NCBI GenBank assembly: GCA_021839985.1
Contig: JAKBZO010000004.1
Span: 1-41,672 of the forward strand
Length of the DNA stretch: 41,672 nucleotides
Direction: 5' to 3'
DNA from: a bacterium
GTDB taxonomy: Bacteria > Patescibacteriota > Minisyncoccia > Phycocordibacterales > SBAW01
Part shown: piece by piece, positions 26,946 to 37,229 of the stretch
How the letters are laid out: each line of letters starts with the position of its first letter
Position numbering within the stretch: position 1 is the stretch's first letter
Notes under the pieces: model-generated
Told to the model about the DNA's origin: nothing
Database searches by the model: none
What the model saw: only the letters and a program-made list of their open reading frames with translations
Made by a program: the position numbers and the translations under genes

Positions 26946-29900
26946 ATGGGCAATTTCTTTCAAAGGTTAACTCGTAAATATTCTCCGATCCCGGAGCTTA
27001 GCGTCACCCTCGTCTTGTCGCTGTTCTTGTTCGTCGTCGTCGAGATGTTCCGCGATCGACTGTACTTTGTCGTAGGCGCGCCACTCTACCTCGATTTTCA
27101 TAACATCGTCGAGTTCGGAAGCGTCGTCGTTTCGCTATCGATATTCAGTTTCGGGTGGTTTACCTACAAGCAGTCCAAGAACGACTTCGCTCTTTTCTTG
27201 GGAGTGATGTTCCTCGGCGTCGCGATACTCGACTTCATGCATGCGCTGAGTTTCCCCGGCATGCCGGCGTTCGTCACGCCGAGCTCGACCGATAAGGGTA
27301 TTCAGTTCTGGATCGCCGCTCGCGTGCTTGCCGCGGTCGCGTTCCTTGTGGTCGCGTTCATTCCATCGAAGTCGAAGACAACGTCGTTCCCGAAAAAAAG
27401 CCTGCTCGTGATCGCCCTTCTCTTCGTATGCGCCGAGTTCATGTGGGTGACGCTCGCTCCGGCTACGCTACCAGCTATGTTCGTTGCGGGTATTGGGCTT
27501 ACGCCGCTGAAGATAGCGATGGAATATGTGATCATTGCGCTCTGCGTGCTTGCGCTCGTGGCGTTCTATGCCCGTTTCCGAAAGACGCGGGATCAGATCT
27601 TAGTGTGGTTCATGTGTGCGCTGGTCATCAGCGTGTTCAGCGAGTTGGCATTCACGCTCTACACGAGTGCGTATGACACCTACAACATGCTCGGGCACGT
27701 GTATAAATTGGCGGCGTACCTGCTCATTTATCGAGCGATATTTACCACTTCTGCGCGCCGTCCCTATGAAAAGCTTGCTGAAAGTGAGCAGGCGCTTGAA
27801 GCGTCTGTTCGTACGCTCAAGATGCTCAGCGCGTGCAACCAAGCGCTGGTGCGAGCGCAAAACGAACAAGAACTATTCCAGCAGGTCTGTGATGATATCG
27901 TTCACATTGGGAAATATCGCTTGGCTTGGGTCGGCTTTGTCGATGGGGAAGAACAAAAAGGAGTGCGACTCGTCGCTGAAGCAGGATTCGATACTGAAGA
28001 TCCAACCGGATGGGCACGTTCCTTTTGGGCAGACACTGAAGGAGAGGACGGACCGGTGAGCGCTGCGGTCAGCACGAAGACGCCGGTCATCATGCACGGT
28101 ATCGGAAGCGGTGCGGGGTCTCCGAAGATGCGCGAAGCTGCGGCGAAATACGGCTTCTCATCGGTGATGGCGTTCCCGCTCATATACGACGGCACGATAG
28201 GAGCGCTGAGTGTCTATTCGACCGACCCGAGCGCGTTCACCAAGAGTGAGGTGGCGACGCTCTCGGAATTGGCAAGCGACCTGTCGTATGGAGTGCGATC
28301 GCTGCAGATGTATGCACACGAGAGACAAGGCGAGGAGCGACTGCGCCAGTCGGAAGAGAAATTCAAAGCGATCTTCAATAATGCGATGGACGGCGTGATC
28401 TTAGCCGATGTTGAGACAAAAAAGTTTTTTGACGCGAACGCTACGATGAGCCGCATGCTCGGGTATGATCTTAATGAGATCAAGGAGCTGGGAATAGCCG
28501 ACATCCACCCGGAAGAAAGCCTGCCGTACGTGCTTGACAAAGTTGAGCAACAGCTCAAGGGGGAGACAACGCTGGCAGAAAACATTCCCGTGAAAAGGAA
28601 GGACGGCGGAGTGTTTTATGCGGACGTCAACTCAAGCCAAGTCATCATCGGCGGGAAAAAGTATCTTCTCGGCGTCTTTAGAGATATATCGAAGCGCAAA
28701 CAGGCGCAGGAGGCTGTCAAGGAGAGTGAAGAAAAATTCTCCAAAGCTTTTTTTATCTCTCCTAACCTAATGGCTATCACCGTACCAGAGACCGGAGAGA
28801 TCATTGAGATCAATGATGCATTCTGTAGATTTTTCGGATATGCTCGCGAAGAGGTCATTGGTCACAGCACGATCGGGCTGCGTATGTGGGCTGATCTGAA
28901 CCAAAGAGATCAAATGCTCGAAGAACTGAATCGGTCTGGAAGCGTTCGCGATCAAGAGGTTGGTCTGCGGATGAAGTCAGGTGGGATACGATCCGTCCTC
29001 GATTCGTTCGACTTTATCTTGATCGGCGGCAAGAAATATCTATTGAACGTTGCCGTGGACATCACGGAGCGTAAACAGTCTGAGGCGGCATTACGTAAGA
29101 GCGAAGCCGACCTGGAGGAAGCCCAGGCCCTGGCGCGTCTGGGCAGTTGGAGCTGGGACATACCGACCGACACCATTTCTTGGTCTGCGGAGTACCGTCA
29201 GATCTATCATATCGGCCCTAACGATCCGACGCCGAATTATGAAGAACACCTCAAGGCCTATACGGCGGAAAGTGCCGCAGCGCTTGATGCGGCGGTCAAG
29301 AAAACTATAGAGACCGGCGAATCATATGCATTGGAACTTCAGTATGCGAAGCCTGATATTGCTGGCATGTGGGTACTTGCGCGCGGCGTTGCGGTGCGCG
29401 ATGCACAGGGTAAGGTTACGGGTCTCCATGGGACCGTGCAGGATATAACCGAGACGAAAGTGCTAGAGAAGATGCGCACCGACTTCTTGTCGCTTGCGTC
29501 TCATCAGCTGCGCACGCCGCTCTCTGGCACGAAGTGGCTCATTGAGACGCTTATTGCAGGCCGAAAGGGGCCGCTGACTCCGGAGCAGAAAGATTATTTG
29601 AACAACATCTATGCCGTAAATGAGCGCATGATAAAGCTGGTGTTCGATATGCTTGCCGTGTTGCGTTTCGAGAGTGGCGTGCTCACCGTGGAGAGAAAGA
29701 GCGTCGATGCGGGGCAGGTCTTCTCGAATATCCTATCGACTATGGGTCCTGCCGCAGCCAGCAAGCACGTGACGGTCACCGATCTTTCTGCCGCAAGAAG
29801 TCTCCCAACCATTGAGGCCGACCCGATTCTTCTGAATACCATTCTTGAATCCTTGGTGTCCAACGCTATCGAGTACTCGCTTCCGGGCGGGGAGGTGGTC

Positions 29901-30170
29901 CTCGATGTAACGGTTCTCGGTGATCGCGCGGCCTTTTCGGTGAAAGATTCCGGGATCGGCATACCAAAAGATGAACAAGACAAGATATTCGACCGTTTCT
30001 ATCGGGCGTCGAATGCCAAGAAGCTTAAACCGGGTGGAAGCGGTTTGGGGCTGTATCTCGCCGCCCTTCTCGCTAAAGCATTGGATGGCGCCATCACGTT
30101 CGAATCGGAGGAAGGGAAGGGCTCGATCTTTTTGCTGGCTATCCCCACTACGACGCCGAACCGACCTTGA
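26946..30170 (+). CDS. Membrane sensor histidine kinase (MASE3-like N-terminus, GAF, several PAS, HisKA, HATPase)
   Basis: LDFHNIVEFGSVVVSLSIFSFGWFTY...LDFMHALSFPGMP; H-box SLASHQLRTPLSG; ATPase motifs VSNAIEYS, DSGIGIPKDEQDKIFDRFYRA, GSGLGLYLA. Confidence 0.9.
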   Translation: MGNFFQRLTRKYSPIPELSVTLVLSLFLFVVVEMFRDRLYFVVGAPLYLDFHNIVEFGSVVVSLSIFSFGWFTYKQSKNDFALFLGVMFLGVAILDFMHALSFPGMPAFVTPSSTDKGIQFWIAARVLAAVAFLVVAFIPSKSKTTSFPKKSLLVIALLFVCAEFMWVTLAPATLPAMFVAGIGLTPLKIAMEYVIIALCVLALVAFYARFRKTRDQILVWFMCALVISVFSELAFTLYTSAYDTYNMLGHVYKLAAYLLIYRAIFTTSARRPYEKLAESEQALEASVRTLKMLSACNQALVRAQNEQELFQQVCDDIVHIGKYRLAWVGFVDGEEQKGVRLVAEAGFDTEDPTGWARSFWADTEGEDGPVSAAVSTKTPVIMHGIGSGAGSPKMREAAAKYGFSSVMAFPLIYDGTIGALSVYSTDPSAFTKSEVATLSELASDLSYGVRSLQMYAHERQGEERLRQSEEKFKAIFNNAMDGVILADVETKKFFDANATMSRMLGYDLNEIKELGIADIHPEESLPYVLDKVEQQLKGETTLAENIPVKRKDGGVFYADVNSSQVIIGGKKYLLGVFRDISKRKQAQEAVKESEEKFSKAFFISPNLMAITVPETGEIIEINDAFCRFFGYAREEVIGHSTIGLRMWADLNQRDQMLEELNRSGSVRDQEVGLRMKSGGIRSVLDSFDFILIGGKKYLLNVAVDITERKQSEAALRKSEADLEEAQALARLGSWSWDIPTDTISWSAEYRQIYHIGPNDPTPNYEEHLKAYTAESAAALDAAVKKTIETGESYALELQYAKPDIAGMWVLARGVAVRDAQGKVTGLHGTVQDITETKVLEKMRTDFLSLASHQLRTPLSGTKWLIETLIAGRKGPLTPEQKDYLNNIYAVNERMIKLVFDMLAVLRFESGVLTVERKSVDAGQVFSNILSTMGPAAASKHVTVTDLSAARSLPTIEADPILLNTILESLVSNAIEYSLPGGEVVLDVTVLGDRAAFSVKDSGIGIPKDEQDKIFDRFYRASNAKKLKPGGSGLGLYLAALLAKALDGAITFESEEGKGSIFLLAIPTTTPNRP

Positions 30171-30188
30171 GAGTGATATCATTTGAAT

Positions 30189-30575
30189 ATGAGTAAAAGC
30201 AATACCATTCTGGTCGTCGAAGATGAAGATTTCTTGGGGCGAGTACTTATCGACAATCTCTCAGCCGAAGGATTCCAGACCGACCTTGCGGTCGACGGCG
30301 AAGAAGCTGTCGAAAAGATGCGCAAAGAGAAGCCGGCGCTCATCTTGCTCGACCTCTTGCTCCCGAAAAAAGACGGGTTTTTTGTCTTGGAGGAGGTGAG
30401 GAGTAATCCTGAACTCAAACTAGTGCCCGTTATCGTGCTCTCCAATCTCGGGGGCGATGAAGACATCAAGCGCGCGCTTGCGCTTGGTGCGAATGACTAT
30501 TTCGTTAAATCGCAGCATCCGATCGTTGAAGTGATCGAAAAAGTGAAGAACATCATGGAGGGCAAGAGGTCCTGA
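30189..30575 (+). CDS. Single-domain response regulator
   Basis: ILVVEDEDFLGRVLIDNL, ALILLDLLLPKKDG; TGaTATCAT ends 6 nt before ATG 30189. Confidence 0.93.
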   Translation: MSKSNTILVVEDEDFLGRVLIDNLSAEGFQTDLAVDGEEAVEKMRKEKPALILLDLLLPKKDGFFVLEEVRSNPELKLVPVIVLSNLGGDEDIKRALALGANDYFVKSQHPIVEVIEKVKNIMEGKRS

Positions 30576-30634
30576 CGCAAGCTTCGGCCGGAGAGCCCCG
30601 AGAGTCATTACCAGGCAGCGTAATCGTACTTTAT

Positions 30635-33600
30635 ATGTACCGCACTCTTCGGACATACTCCTCATCGGTAGGACACCAGATCGCGCTCGGGAGGGAAAGT
30701 AAGAAGTCTCTCGCACGATTCGTCATGCAGCTTCTTATTGCGGGAAGCGCGTTCGGTCTGCTTGCTCCCGTCGCATTTGCGGCGACGGTCACGAGTACCG
30801 CCACCGGCGGCAATTGGAATACGGGTTCGACATGGGTCGGCGGCACCGCTCCTGCAGCTGGCGACACCGCTGTCATCGCAACGACTGGCGGAAACAGCGT
30901 GACCATTACGGCAAACGCAACGATCGCGAACCTTACGGTGAACTCGGGCAGCACCCTCGCGTTCTCTGGCTCGCAGACGCTTACCTTCGGCACGGCGGGC
31001 GGCGGCGCGACGGTGAACGGAACCGTCAACGGAAGCGGCACTTTGGTGATGAACAAAAATCCGAACGTGCTCGCCGGTGTGGGTACGATCAATAGTTTGA
31101 TTAGCGCCGCGCAGCCGACCTCTGTTTCCGCATCGTCCAACCTGACGGTGAATGGCACCATCGCGGTCGGGAATACGTTCACCATCAATGCGGGCGCGAT
31201 GCTGAATGCGAGCACCATCAACTCGAACGGAAAGACCGTTGCGAATAACGGCACGGTGAATCTCAGTGGCAATTATGCGCGAACCGGCGGGACCGCGATC
31301 TGGACGCAGGGCACCAGTGCCGTATTGAATATAGGAGGCATATTCACTCCTTCTGCCAACGTGACACTGACTGCCACGGGAAGCGGTAACACTGTGAATT
31401 ACAACGGATCGGCACAAGCGATCAAGCCTGCCAGCTATGTCAATCTGACGCTCTCGGGAAGCGGCATCGCGACACTCGTTACCGGCACCTCCGTGAGCGG
31501 CACCATGAATATCGCGCAGACCGGCTCCGCGACGGCGAGTATCGGCGCAGGACTCACGCTCACGGTCGCAAATCTGACGCTCGGCGGACTCGGTCGCATC
31601 AACGGCACCTGGGGTTCCACGAGCTCGACCGCGACGTATCAGAACAATACGTACTTTGCGGCGACGACGGGCAAACTGTCGGTCACGAATGATACGCGCG
31701 CGACACCGACGATCTCCGTTTCTAATTCTCCGGTGACCTATAGCGGGGCCGCGCAGGCGGCCGTGGTCACGGGTTCCGTTTCCGGTACGGCCTCCAGTAT
31801 TCTTTATGGCGGTTCAGGCACGACGCCGACGAACGCCGGCACCTATGCGGTGACGGCGAACTTCACGCCGACCGATGGGACGAGCTACAAGAGTTTGACT
31901 GGCGCTTCGGCAGGGAACTTCATCATCAATCAAGCGACAACGACGACGTCCGTGGCGACGTCGGGCACGCCGACGGTCTACGGTACCACCGTGACATTCA
32001 CGGCGACGGTTGCTCCACAAAATGGCGGCGCGCCTTCTGGGACCGTTACCTTTAAAGATGGCGCGACGATCATCGGCACCGGCACCCTCGGCGGCGGTAG
32101 CCCGGACACCGCTACGTATGCGACGGCGGCACTCTCGGCGAGAGCTCATTCGATCACTGCGGTGTACGCCGGCGATAGCAACTACGTCACGAGCACATCG
32201 GGTCCGATCTCACAGTCGGTCACGCAAAAGACCCTCACCATCTCCGGCATCACGGCGAATGACAAGCCATATGATGGAGGCACCACCGCCGTGCTCGCGG
32301 GCACGCCGGGCACCCTCGTCGGCGTCATTTCCGGCGATGCAGTCTCGCTGAGCGGCACTGCCGTGGGCACCTTCGCTTCACCGAACGTTGGCACCGGCAT
32401 CACGGTCACCGTCTCCGGTCAGTCGCTCACGGGTGCGCAAGCAGGGAACTACTCGCTCACGGAGCCGACCACGATGGCCAACATCACCGGCAAGACCCTC
32501 ACCATCTCCGGCCTCACGGCAAACAACAAGACCTACGACCAGGGCAATACCGCAACGATCTCCGGTACTCCCGTGCTCGTCGGCGTTCAATCAGGTGACT
32601 CCGTCTCCCTCGTGGGCACCGCGGTCGGCACGTTCGCATCTGTGAATGTCGGCACCGGCATCTCTGTCTCGGTGAGCGGCCTGTCACTCACCGGGGCACA
32701 GGCAGGCAACTACTCACTGACGCAGCCGACCCTGTCAGCCAATATCACGCAAAAGAACCTCACCATCTCCGGCATCACGGCGAATGACAAGCCATATGAT
32801 GGAGGCACCACCGCCGTGCTCGCGGGCACGCCGGGCACCCTCGTCGGCGTCATTTCCGGCGATGCAGTCTCGCTGAGCGGCACTGCCGTGGGCACCTTCG
32901 CTTCACCGAACGTTGGCACCGGCATCACGGTCACCGTCTCCGGTCAGTCGCTCACGGGTGCGCAAGCAGGGAACTACTCGCTCACGGAGCCGACGCTTTC
33001 GGCGGACATCCTTAACGCCGGCCCCACGGTCACATCGATCTCGCCGTCGTCGAAGAATGTCGGTGACGCAGGCTTCACTCTCACGGTGACGGGCTCGAAC
33101 TTCGTCGCCAGCTCCACGGTCAATTTCAATGGCTCGCCGCGCACCACCACGTTCGCTTCATCGACAGAGCTCACGGCGTCGATCCTTTCATCCGACCTCA
33201 CGACCGCCACTACCTCAGCGCTCATCACTGTCACCAATCCCGCTCCAGGCGGCGGCACTTCGAGCGCGGCGGTGTTCAGCGTCATAGCTCTCAATACGGC
33301 ACCGACCATTTCCTCGATCACGCCGAGCTCGGTCTCGGTAGGGTCGCCGGATACGGTCGTGACGATCATCGGCACGGACTTCCTCGCATCGTCGACCGTC
33401 CAGTTCAATAGTGCGGATCTCGCGACGACGACCTTCGCGTCTTCCACGCAGATGACCGCGACCATTCCTGCCGCACATTTGACCGCCACCTCCACCAATA
33501 GCATCACCGTCACCAATCCTGCCCCCGGCGGCGGTACCTCGAGCACGCAGACATTTTCTGTGGTCACTGCAGCTGACACGACCGCGCCGACCGTGACCTC

Positions 33601-35080
33601 GTTCTCTCTTCTGGCGACCTCTTCTGCCCTCACCATCTCGATCTCATCGTTGTCAGCTACCGACAATGTCGGCGTCACGGGCTACCTGGTGACGGAATCT
33701 TCAACGACGCCAGCGGTGAGCAACTCGGCGTGGTCGGCGACCGCACCCTCGAGCTACACCTTCGCGCTTCAGGGCGACAAGACATTGTATGCTTGGGCAA
33801 AAGATGCCGCTGGCAATATCTCCACCGGCGTGAGCGCGACGACCACGATCACCTATGTGCAGGTGAGTCCGGGGGGAGAGCAGACACTTCTTACCAACGG
33901 GACGATGAGTCCCAACAACACCGCGGCGTCTTCAAGCAACGTCACTTTCAAACAAGCGGTGCATGTGGTGTTCGGAAACGGATCGACCATCGTCGTCCCG
34001 TTGAGCACTGTCATGACGGCCTCGACGACCTCTGATTGGACGACGCTCCTCTCGACTAACAGCGTCTCGACGACGGACATTCCATCGAGCGTGACATCGG
34101 CGGGCGCGCTGCAGTGGGGGCTTCCGAGCACTGCGATCACTGCCAGCCAGCCGGTCACGATCGAGATCTACGTCGGCGCCGCATTCAATGGCCGTTCGCT
34201 CTCGTACTATCGGAAAGAGGCAGGAGGGACTGCATGGACGCAAGCGGGCACCTGCACGATAAGCTCCGGCCTGTGTCAGTTCACAACCTCGACATTCTGC
34301 TCATTCTTCGTGGGAGTGCCGGTCACGGCTCCCGCGTCATCGGCGGGTGGAGGTTCGACCGTACCGCCAACGACCGTGACCATCGACGGCGTTGCATTCC
34401 CGGGCGCATCGGTCTCCGTGATCGACAAAGACTCACCGTACCAGACGATCTTCACCAAGGATGTGACGACCGGCTCTGACGGCACGTTCCATATAAGTTT
34501 CGTCGGCGTTCTCATGAGTCAGCACAGCTACGGTCTTATCGTTCGTGATAGCCAAGGTCGCCTCTCCCAATCGAAATTCTTTAACATCGACACGGTGACC
34601 AATTCGCTGACCGTCAAAGATGTCGTGGTGTCTCCGACCATCGGTTTCCTCCAGACGGCGGTGACTCGCGGCAACCCGGTCACGATCGTCGGCTTCTCAA
34701 CGCCGGGCAGCACCGTTCATGTGTCCCTCGATGGTACAATGCAGAAAGATGTGACGGCAGGAAGCGACGGATCGTACCGACTCTCCGCGGATACGGGAGC
34801 GCTTGATTTCGGCGGACACCAGGCACGAGCGAGCCAGACCACTAAGGCGGGTGTCACGAGCGACTTCTCACCGACGCAGATGTTCACGGTCGCTCAGACG
34901 TCCAACGTATCGACCGACCTCAACGGAGACGGCGTGACCGATATCAAAGACCTGAGTATCTTCCTCTCGCGCTGGCAGTCGACCGACCCGGCGGTCCTTA
35001 AGACGATCGATTTCGACGGCGATGGCAGGGTAGACCTTACCGACTTCAGCATTCTCCTCCGAGCTATTAGAAAGCAGTAG
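30635..35080 (+). CDS. Large secreted repeat protein (MBG/YDG-like, Ig-like, IPT/TIG-like domains) with C-terminal type I dockerin
   Basis: Signal-like MQLLIAGSAFGLLAPVAFA; YDG repeats (TISGITANDKPYDGGTTAVLAG); C-terminal Ca-loops DLNGDGVTDIKDL and DFDGDGRVDLTDF. Confidence 0.88.
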   Translation: MYRTLRTYSSSVGHQIALGRESKKSLARFVMQLLIAGSAFGLLAPVAFAATVTSTATGGNWNTGSTWVGGTAPAAGDTAVIATTGGNSVTITANATIANLTVNSGSTLAFSGSQTLTFGTAGGGATVNGTVNGSGTLVMNKNPNVLAGVGTINSLISAAQPTSVSASSNLTVNGTIAVGNTFTINAGAMLNASTINSNGKTVANNGTVNLSGNYARTGGTAIWTQGTSAVLNIGGIFTPSANVTLTATGSGNTVNYNGSAQAIKPASYVNLTLSGSGIATLVTGTSVSGTMNIAQTGSATASIGAGLTLTVANLTLGGLGRINGTWGSTSSTATYQNNTYFAATTGKLSVTNDTRATPTISVSNSPVTYSGAAQAAVVTGSVSGTASSILYGGSGTTPTNAGTYAVTANFTPTDGTSYKSLTGASAGNFIINQATTTTSVATSGTPTVYGTTVTFTATVAPQNGGAPSGTVTFKDGATIIGTGTLGGGSPDTATYATAALSARAHSITAVYAGDSNYVTSTSGPISQSVTQKTLTISGITANDKPYDGGTTAVLAGTPGTLVGVISGDAVSLSGTAVGTFASPNVGTGITVTVSGQSLTGAQAGNYSLTEPTTMANITGKTLTISGLTANNKTYDQGNTATISGTPVLVGVQSGDSVSLVGTAVGTFASVNVGTGISVSVSGLSLTGAQAGNYSLTQPTLSANITQKNLTISGITANDKPYDGGTTAVLAGTPGTLVGVISGDAVSLSGTAVGTFASPNVGTGITVTVSGQSLTGAQAGNYSLTEPTLSADILNAGPTVTSISPSSKNVGDAGFTLTVTGSNFVASSTVNFNGSPRTTTFASSTELTASILSSDLTTATTSALITVTNPAPGGGTSSAAVFSVIALNTAPTISSITPSSVSVGSPDTVVTIIGTDFLASSTVQFNSADLATTTFASSTQMTATIPAAHLTATSTNSITVTNPAPGGGTSSTQTFSVVTAADTTAPTVTSFSLLATSSALTISISSLSATDNVGVTGYLVTESSTTPAVSNSAWSATAPSSYTFALQGDKTLYAWAKDAAGNISTGVSATTTITYVQVSPGGEQTLLTNGTMSPNNTAASSSNVTFKQAVHVVFGNGSTIVVPLSTVMTASTTSDWTTLLSTNSVSTTDIPSSVTSAGALQWGLPSTAITASQPVTIEIYVGAAFNGRSLSYYRKEAGGTAWTQAGTCTISSGLCQFTTSTFCSFFVGVPVTAPASSAGGGSTVPPTTVTIDGVAFPGASVSVIDKDSPYQTIFTKDVTTGSDGTFHISFVGVLMSQHSYGLIVRDSQGRLSQSKFFNIDTVTNSLTVKDVVVSPTIGFLQTAVTRGNPVTIVGFSTPGSTVHVSLDGTMQKDVTAGSDGSYRLSADTGALDFGGHQARASQTTKAGVTSDFSPTQMFTVAQTSNVSTDLNGDGVTDIKDLSIFLSRWQSTDPAVLKTIDFDGDGRVDLTDFSILLRAIRKQ
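32233..32469 (+). repeat. 237-bp direct repeat, copy 1
   Basis: Identical by eye to 32758-32994 (offset 525 bp). Confidence 0.93.
32758..32994 (+). repeat. 237-bp direct repeat, copy 2
   Basis: Identical by eye to 32233-32469. Confidence 0.93.
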
Positions 35081-35103
35081 AGCTTATTATTTACAAAGCC
35101 ACT

Positions 35104-36819
35104 ATGAAAAAATTCGATCGAGCTCTTTTTGGTCTTGCTGCAGGAATGCTGTTCTTCGGCATGGCGTCGAGCGCGTCTGCCGCCACCCTTTTTCTCTCGC
35201 CGCCGACCGTCGTGATAGGTCCCTCGCAGAACTTCAGCGTTGACATAAAGGTGGACGGCGCCGGTGTTGGGTTCAACGCAGCGCAAGCGACCATCCGATT
35301 CCCAACGGATCTGCTCCAGGTCAGCTCGATCGATAAAACGAATTCAGCTTTCAGTTTCTGGCTTGAGGACCCAGTCTTCTCGAACGATCAAGGAGCCATT
35401 TCGTTCATCGGCGGCTCTCCATTCGGAGTTTCCGGGGCGGCTATTCAAGTGCTTCGCGTGAACTTCGTACCAAAGGGGACCGGTACCGGCACTATTTCAG
35501 TTGCGAGCGCCGCGATCACCGCCTCTGATGGCAGTGGTACGAACATCCTCTCGACGACCACCAGCGCGTCCATCACCGTCTCTCCGACGAACGTGACATC
35601 TTCAAGCGCGGTAACAGCGCCGCAGCAGATAACGCGCACACCTGCTCCGGCGACCGGCGTGCCGGCGGCGCCGTCTCTCAACGTGTCGCTCTATCCTGAC
35701 CCTACGCAGTGGTACGACCAAGTGAGTCCGTTCTCGGTGAGTTGGAACCTTCCTGCTGATGTCTCCGCCATTGCGACCGCGATCAACAAGCAGCCGAATT
35801 TCGATCCGACCACCTCGGAGGGTCTGTTCGACAACAAGACCTTCGACGCGCTTTCAGACGGGATCTGGTATCTGCATGTGCGGTTCAAGGATAGCGTCGG
35901 TTGGAGCGCGACCGCGCACAGCCGCATCGCCATCGACACACAACCGCCGCTCGGCTTCAAGATAACGACGCAAGGCGGGGACACGGCAAATGATCCGGCG
36001 CCGACGCTTCAGTTCAAGACCGACGATGCGCTTTCCGGTATGAAGGAGTATGACGTGATCGTAGATAACCACGACCCCCTCGTTGTGCCTGCGAAGGGTT
36101 TTACGGGTAGCTTCACCCTGCCGCTTCAGGTGCCTGGTGATCATCACGTCCAGGTGAGGGCGGTCGATAATGCAGGCAACAGCGTTGAAGATTTCATCAC
36201 CCTTCATATCCTGCCGATCGCGTCCCCGACGATCTCCTTCACAACGCCGCAGCTCTTCTCTGGCGAGCCGACCGGTTTGACCGTACAAGGTTCCGCCTTG
36301 CCGAATATCGAGGTCGTCCTCAATGTCCATCAAGCCGATGCTGTCATCGCGAGCTCGACCGTTCAGACGGACGCCCAAGGTAATTGGGAATATACGTTCA
36401 GCGAACCGCTCCACAATGGCACCTACAACGTGAGTGCGGTGAGCCGCGATGCTCGGGGAGCACTCAGTCTGACGGTCGAATCACCCTCTGTCGTAGTAAC
36501 GAACCGGCCTATTCTTGAGATCGGCTCATTCCAGCTCGGTTCCGGCGGCGCCGCAGTTCTTCTCTTGATCATCCTGCTCGGTGGTTTTGGGAGCGGGGTG
36601 TGGTTCTATCGCAAGCGCACGGCACTCTTCGCACAACGTCTCGTCGCTGCTTCAAGAGATCTGTCCACCGTGTTCGACCTCATTCGCAAAGACGTTGAGC
36701 GGATAGACGCGGAAATACCAGCAAACTCGGAACACAAGTCGGTCGTTAAACATTTGAGGGAAAATGTGCAAAAGATGGAGGTGCTCCTGAAGAAAGAGAT
36801 CGAGCGTATCGACAAATAG
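35104..36819 (+). CDS. Cell-surface protein with N-terminal cohesin-like domain, Ig-like domains and C-terminal TM anchor
   Basis: Signal peptide; LFLSPPTVVIGPSQNFSVDIKVDGAGVGFNAAQATIRFPTDLLQVSSIDKTNSAFSFW...AISFIGGSP...QVLRVNFVPKGTGTGTISV; C-terminal AAVLLLIILLGGFGSGVWFYRKR. Confidence 0.75.
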   Translation: MKKFDRALFGLAAGMLFFGMASSASAATLFLSPPTVVIGPSQNFSVDIKVDGAGVGFNAAQATIRFPTDLLQVSSIDKTNSAFSFWLEDPVFSNDQGAISFIGGSPFGVSGAAIQVLRVNFVPKGTGTGTISVASAAITASDGSGTNILSTTTSASITVSPTNVTSSSAVTAPQQITRTPAPATGVPAAPSLNVSLYPDPTQWYDQVSPFSVSWNLPADVSAIATAINKQPNFDPTTSEGLFDNKTFDALSDGIWYLHVRFKDSVGWSATAHSRIAIDTQPPLGFKITTQGGDTANDPAPTLQFKTDDALSGMKEYDVIVDNHDPLVVPAKGFTGSFTLPLQVPGDHHVQVRAVDNAGNSVEDFITLHILPIASPTISFTTPQLFSGEPTGLTVQGSALPNIEVVLNVHQADAVIASSTVQTDAQGNWEYTFSEPLHNGTYNVSAVSRDARGALSLTVESPSVVVTNRPILEIGSFQLGSGGAAVLLLIILLGGFGSGVWFYRKRTALFAQRLVAASRDLSTVFDLIRKDVERIDAEIPANSEHKSVVKHLRENVQKMEVLLKKEIERIDK

Positions 36820-36836
36820 CTCACCCACTAGCCATA

Positions 36837-37229
36837 ATGAACCTATCAATGGAAAATTCTCAGAAAAAGATCCTGATCGTAGAAGATGAAGATGTTATTG
36901 CACTTCCGCTTGCCGACACACTGCGGGCTGAGGGATTTGCCGTGCTTACGGCCGTTGATGGCTCAGAAGGTCTTGATATTTCACTTCGTGAAAAGCCGGA
37001 TCTGATCGTGCTTGATATCCTCATGCCGAAGATGGACGGAACTGAGATGCTCAAGCGCTTGCGTGCGGACGAATGGGGGAAGGATGCGCGCGTGGTCGTT
37101 CTCACGAACGTCGCTGAAATGACAAAGATGGCGGATGTGATCGATGAGCGAGTGACCGACTACTTGCTGAAGGTTGATTGGGATCTGGAGAGTGTTGTTT
37201 CCCTCATCAAAGAGCACCTCGGGGTGTGA
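36837..37229 (+). CDS. Single-domain response regulator (start may be ATG 36849)
   Basis: KILIVEDEDVIALPLADTLRAEGF, DLIVLDILMPKMDGTEML. Confidence 0.9.
   Translation: MNLSMENSQKKILIVEDEDVIALPLADTLRAEGFAVLTAVDGSEGLDISLREKPDLIVLDILMPKMDGTEMLKRLRADEWGKDARVVVLTNVAEMTKMADVIDERVTDYLLKVDWDLESVVSLIKEHLGV

Follow-up and report, generated by a model that had tools for sequence, protein, structure and literature searches.

The window, the whole 41,672-nucleotide stretch of DNA analysed here (contig C4), belongs to a 736-kb genome that is 95% complete and whose nearest named relatives belong to the Parcubacteria group of Patescibacteria; a kinship label places an Adlerbacteria MAG in the same family. 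At positions 26946-37229, five genes on the forward strand encode a kinase, a receiver, a dockerin protein, a cohesin protein and a second receiver, separated by gaps of 12, 59, 23 and 17 bp. An ORF check and Pfam domain assignments bear out this order, which a sequence-only reading of the window had proposed from kinase to second receiver. The first gene (26946..30170, +) encodes a membrane histidine kinase of 1074 aa with a MASE3 sensor, GAF, three PAS, HisKA and HATPase_c domains, and is followed by a receiver-only response regulator of 130 aa without an output domain (30183..30575, +; Pfam Response_reg only). A second regulator, likewise matching Response_reg, closes the block (36837..37229, +) and holds the same position in many relatives. 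Both regulators are receiver-only and 130 aa long, and the block does not contain a two-component system with DNA-binding output. Promoter and terminator scans gave results near shuffle expectation.

The third gene (30635..35080, +) encodes a secreted, dockerin-terminated repeat protein of 1481 aa, and its same-strand place upstream of the cohesin gene is conserved. Pfam resolves Big_3_5, three stretches of YDG, TIG and, at the C-terminus, Dockerin_1. A probable signal peptide, with a hydrophobic segment at residue 26, would be cut after AFA at about residue 49 (30635..30781, +), and no membrane helix was found in the protein beyond it. The two Ig-like modules immediately N-terminal to the dockerin (34346..34906, +) are kept in relatives (alignments A3 and A6), and Big_6 is present in 18/53 homologues. 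The N-termini of this protein and its closest relative align well, so the difference in length between them apparently reflects repeat number. Residues 1427-1478 (34913..35068, +) match Dockerin_1 (PF00404) with 28.8 bits in the protein and 34.7 bits in a genome search, against a cut-off of 22.9, and a C-terminal profile built from relatives matches dockerins in the PDB (E 1.8e-11). The domain contains two duplicated predicted calcium-binding loops, each with acidic residues or Asn at positions 1, 3, 5 and 12 and each followed by a helix: DLNGDGVTDIKD (residues 1428-1439; 34916..34951, +), in which D1428 and D1439 are invariant in 53 homologues, and DFDGDGRVDLTD (residues 1459-1470; 35009..35044, +), in which D1470 is invariant and D1459 almost invariant. 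The predicted model of the homologue from a close relative (L043) shows a helix after each loop. Judged by these sequence features, the C-terminal domain of the protein is a true type I dockerin, as the sequence-only reading had held.

The fourth gene (35104..36819, +) encodes a membrane-anchored cohesin protein of 571 aa, an assignment supported by Pfam, alignment, AlphaFold2 and Foldseek. A probable signal peptide, cut after ASA at about residue 26 (35104..35181, +; A26/A27 invariant in alignment A1), precedes a cohesin domain of about residues 27-161 (35182..35586, +). An Ig-like spacer of approximate limits (36001..36513, +; Big_13 and related, Big_13 E 7.8e-12) leads to a transmembrane helix at residues 483-503, followed by RKR (36550..36612, +), where hydropathy and conservation agree with the anchor that had been suggested. 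The 68-aa tail (36613..36816, +) is conserved in tail alignments and, being charged and C-terminal to the helix and RKR, is probably cytoplasmic. Pfam recognizes the dockerin but not, at threshold, the cohesin: the full-length protein gave only Ig-like matches and no match to Cohesin, and the isolated domain reached 22.2 bits (PF00963, E 1.7e-4) against a cut-off of 24.1. A single-sequence PDB search likewise returned no cohesin match. Pfam Cohesin is matched by 48 of 87 homologous domains at E <= 0.1, the best at 1.2e-9. AlphaFold2 predicts the domain with a pLDDT of 94.9 and a pTM of 0.88 with 11 strand segments, in keeping with the nine-stranded beta-sandwich of jelly-roll topology that marks cohesins, and in a Foldseek search of the PDB the top 50 matches listed are all cohesins, both cellulosomal and non-cellulosomal (prob 1.00, TM 0.52-0.75). 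By its predicted structure, the domain that had been called cohesin-like is a cohesin.

The adjacency of the two genes, proposed as a feature that relatives should share, recurs across Patescibacteria. The cohesin protein has 404 relatives in one scan of the GTDB species genomes, the best 80 of them almost all from Patescibacteria, and a dockerin-ending gene lies directly upstream on the same strand in nearly all relatives with upstream sequence (median gap 9 bp, 85 pairs), so the arrangement is not due to chance. Guarding against circularity, we ran a cohesin profile and a dockerin profile independently on 60 related genomes: 17 contain both, 1 only a cohesin, 2 only a dockerin and 40 neither (Fisher p 8e-12), the single cohesin-only genome having a weak 36-residue match. 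A same-strand cohesin lies within 80 bp downstream of 22 of the 26 dockerins in these genomes. We also replaced a hand-picked list of cohesin/dockerin coordinates, which was biased by selection, with a phylum sample of 40 dockerin genes selected on their Pfam dockerin score and nothing else. Among the 36 re-found by profile, 24 have a same-strand cohesin within five genes (21 directly adjacent, 3 nearby) and 12 have none. By Pfam alone, 118 of 389 Patescibacteria genomes have a cohesin and 155 a dockerin.

The window genome itself contains exactly two dockerin genes, each with a cohesin-TM neighbour. The second pair (contig C11, L124:2269-3690) consists of a divergent dockerin protein of 208 aa and a cohesin-TM protein of 260 aa, and directly follows a large ORF that combines a Peptidase_S74 tail-fibre chaperone domain with an Ig domain. 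Loci in relatives mostly contain one or two single-cohesin genes. Elsewhere, arrays of several dockerins accompany a long ORF with two cohesin matches in two genomes, G128 (contig C27) and G156 (contigs C33, C36 and C1), with a dockerin in the same frame as the two-cohesin ORF in G128; these could be genuine Patescibacteria scaffoldins. The contig Loki_b32 (L111:5134-8938), which carries a Lokiarchaeota label, has a typical Patescibacteria locus of a dockerin and two cohesins and is probably misbinned.

Loci in relatives fall into two types: type A, to which the window belongs, has a single long cohesin gene, whereas the other has a short one, either in addition or alone. Histidine kinase or response regulator genes occur within four genes of 56/73 type A loci and 0/23 short-cohesin loci, and a receiver is directly adjacent in 44/73 type A loci; the two-component setting that had been noted around the pair is thus conserved among loci of the window's type. 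The regulators beside type A loci are of receiver-only size (71/73 <=170 aa). The types also differ at cohesin Q61 in strand 3 (type A 65/68, short-cohesin type 0/19) and at a dockerin W at loop-1 position 13 (type A 50/62, short-cohesin type 0/20), where the window's own dockerin has L rather than W; the significance of these residue and two-component contrasts is overstated, because the tests take sequences to be independent and the types form two lineages. The Q61/W13 pattern is what matched interfaces would give, and it separates two lineages rather than independent events. The tail signature IAxRDv is found in type A, and the tail of short-cohesin loci differs. In short-cohesin loci, the gene immediately upstream of the dockerin gene often encodes a protein with weak similarity to a WxL-interacting peptidoglycan-binding domain (E 0.009), as at L027:12307-13227, L114 and five others.

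Structure prediction and covariation bear on whether the two proteins bind each other. The dockerin and cohesin genes of L043 share a reading frame; with the stop codon read as glycine, a single chain of dockerin, linker, signal peptide and cohesin could therefore be modelled. AlphaFold2, given paired and unpaired rows, predicts this linked fusion with a pLDDT of 87.9 and a pTM of 0.76, only the linker being disordered. The fusion forces proximity, and we judged the cognate pair only, on pLDDT and pTM; because we estimate that a model with the cohesin placed and the dockerin unplaced would give a pTM of ~0.6, placement of the dockerin seems defined. In a mirror-tree analysis the partial correlation between dockerin and cohesin is 0.15, a value reached in 8/500 permutations, and it is unspecific, as it is lower than the correlation between the Ig modules and the cohesin. 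None of the three contrary outcomes named by the sequence-only reading (no cohesin fold, no predicted interface, no conserved adjacency) was seen, the interface being judged indirectly through the linked fusion. We infer that dockerin and cohesin of the pair bind each other, probably with calcium.

Type IV pilus genes occur near some of these loci. The window genome encodes a type IV pilus operon on contig C24 (L123:881-13403) with pilins, PilC, PilT, PilB, PilO, PilN and PilM assigned by resemblance and order, a receiver-only regulator encoded between PilB and PilT, and a kinase and two receivers upstream. Four loci (L046:7692-20208, L049, L038 and L107) have a type IV pilus operon, complete or nearly so, downstream of the dockerin-cohesin pair and on its strand. 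We do not rely on this linkage, which at 5 loci is suggestive against an estimated ~2 expected by chance.

We consider it probable that the pair forms a non-cellulosomal cohesin-dockerin tether, two-part and non-covalent, that under two-component control displays large proteins of adhesin-like type on the surface of Patescibacteria. The protein of 35104-36819 would be exported, held in the membrane by its C-terminal helix, and would present its N-terminal cohesin on an Ig-like stalk. Because the protein of 30635-35080 has no anchor of its own, it would be fully secreted and then captured on the cohesin through its C-terminal calcium-loop dockerin, its Ig/YDG/TIG repeats projecting outward; an adhesin is the most likely role of these repeats. 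Control of the display system would probably fall to the kinase and receiver-only regulators on either side. Since these regulators have no output domains, their targets may be proteins, with the cohesin tail or pilus motors as conjectural candidates. A bolder proposal, which we regard as doubtful, makes the cohesin protein a transmembrane receptor for the dockerin adhesin, with receivers docking on its cytoplasmic tail (IAxRDv) to switch retention, clustering or signalling; this would be an integrin-like inside-out/outside-in device built from cellulosome parts and common to Patescibacteria.

The most conventional alternative is a cellulosome-like tether that holds dockerin enzymes on the surface for breakdown of polysaccharides or host glycans. 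The classical setting of the cohesin and dockerin families is the cellulosome, and a few dockerin partners carry CBM96, laminin-G-like or G8 domains. Complete dockerin proteins in relatives range from 191 to 2737 aa, and besides these domains Pfam finds fn3, Ig-like, InlB B-repeat-like, YDG and BNR domains in 53 such proteins. Yet no glycoside hydrolase, lyase or other catalytic family appears among the 25 families listed for the 53 partners (7 rarer families occur besides), and matches to Pur_ac_phosph_N and PhoD_N are to what we take to be N-terminal Ig/fn3-like modules, non-catalytic. The window protein, moreover, has one cohesin domain per anchor rather than the multi-cohesin scaffoldin with a CBM of a cellulosome. 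An enzyme tether is on these grounds improbable, and the earlier view that cellulose degradation is an unlikely role agrees with the families listed. The partner domains are instead of adhesin-like types, which by domain type suggests adhesion.

A structural role, in which the dockerin protein would form an S-layer-like or envelope coat attached to the cohesin in the membrane rather than serve as an adhesin for other cells, fits the long Ig/YDG repeats and their large variation in length, and patchy presence is compatible with alternative coats. Absence of the pair from 40/60 relatives would be odd for an essential coat, however, and the domain types resemble those of adhesins, making a coat possible but unlikely. 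It could also be that the proteins do not bind each other, their adjacency arising from co-transfer of two surface-protein genes whose products bind third parties. The weak mirror-tree coevolution speaks for this, but co-occurrence and tight gene order recur in several locus types and in the second pair of the same genome, mutual binding is the one well-established function of the two matching families, and the linked model gives the dockerin a defined placement; we think independent binding very improbable. The pair, often with signalling genes, recurs across ultra-small Patescibacteria, where the tether we favour probably holds exchangeable attachment proteins on the surface.

The pair may bear on how Patescibacteria attach to hosts or surfaces. 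Southlakia epibionticum SEML1_0315 is an essential dockerin-domain envelope protein reported without a known partner, for which the authors speculate on adhesion to or degradation of host glycans (PMC10633639); it is a Patescibacteria dockerin protein like that of the window, and the text of the paper names no cohesin (PMC10633639). If the tether is real, the partner class of such dockerin proteins would be a TM-anchored cohesin, usually encoded by the next gene; small recombinant domains should bind with calcium, giving a handle for removing surface stalks. Surface display would then be tied to receiver-only signalling, which the window genome also has at its type IV pilus locus, and the phylum would offer a clear case of cohesin-dockerin locking used for surface display and not for cellulose degradation. 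A full-text literature search for cohesin or dockerin in Patescibacteria/CPR, with subscription papers mostly outside it, found no description of this module, and an earlier mention is possible.

The closest known counterparts are anchoring scaffoldins of cellulosomes (Clostridium thermocellum OlpA, OlpC and SdbA; Ruminococcus flavefaciens ScaE), which likewise offer a surface-anchored cohesin to a secreted dockerin protein, and the window cohesin fold matches the structures of OlpA, OlpC and ScaE in Foldseek. Those scaffoldins are anchored by SLH domains or sortase, whereas the window protein has a C-terminal TM helix and a conserved tail that is probably cytoplasmic. The cargo differs too, being a repeat protein and not an enzyme. 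Each anchor has a single cargo gene, the two form an operon-like pair, and two-component genes are attached to it. Non-cellulosomal cohesins of Archaeoglobus fulgidus (2xdh) and Clostridium perfringens (2vo8, 2jh2) also match the window fold and lie outside cellulose degradation. The C. perfringens cohesin and dockerin modules are part of secreted enzymes, unlike the window cargo, and compared with the modules of both organisms the type found here is a phylum-wide pair with a membrane anchor and adhesin-like cargo.
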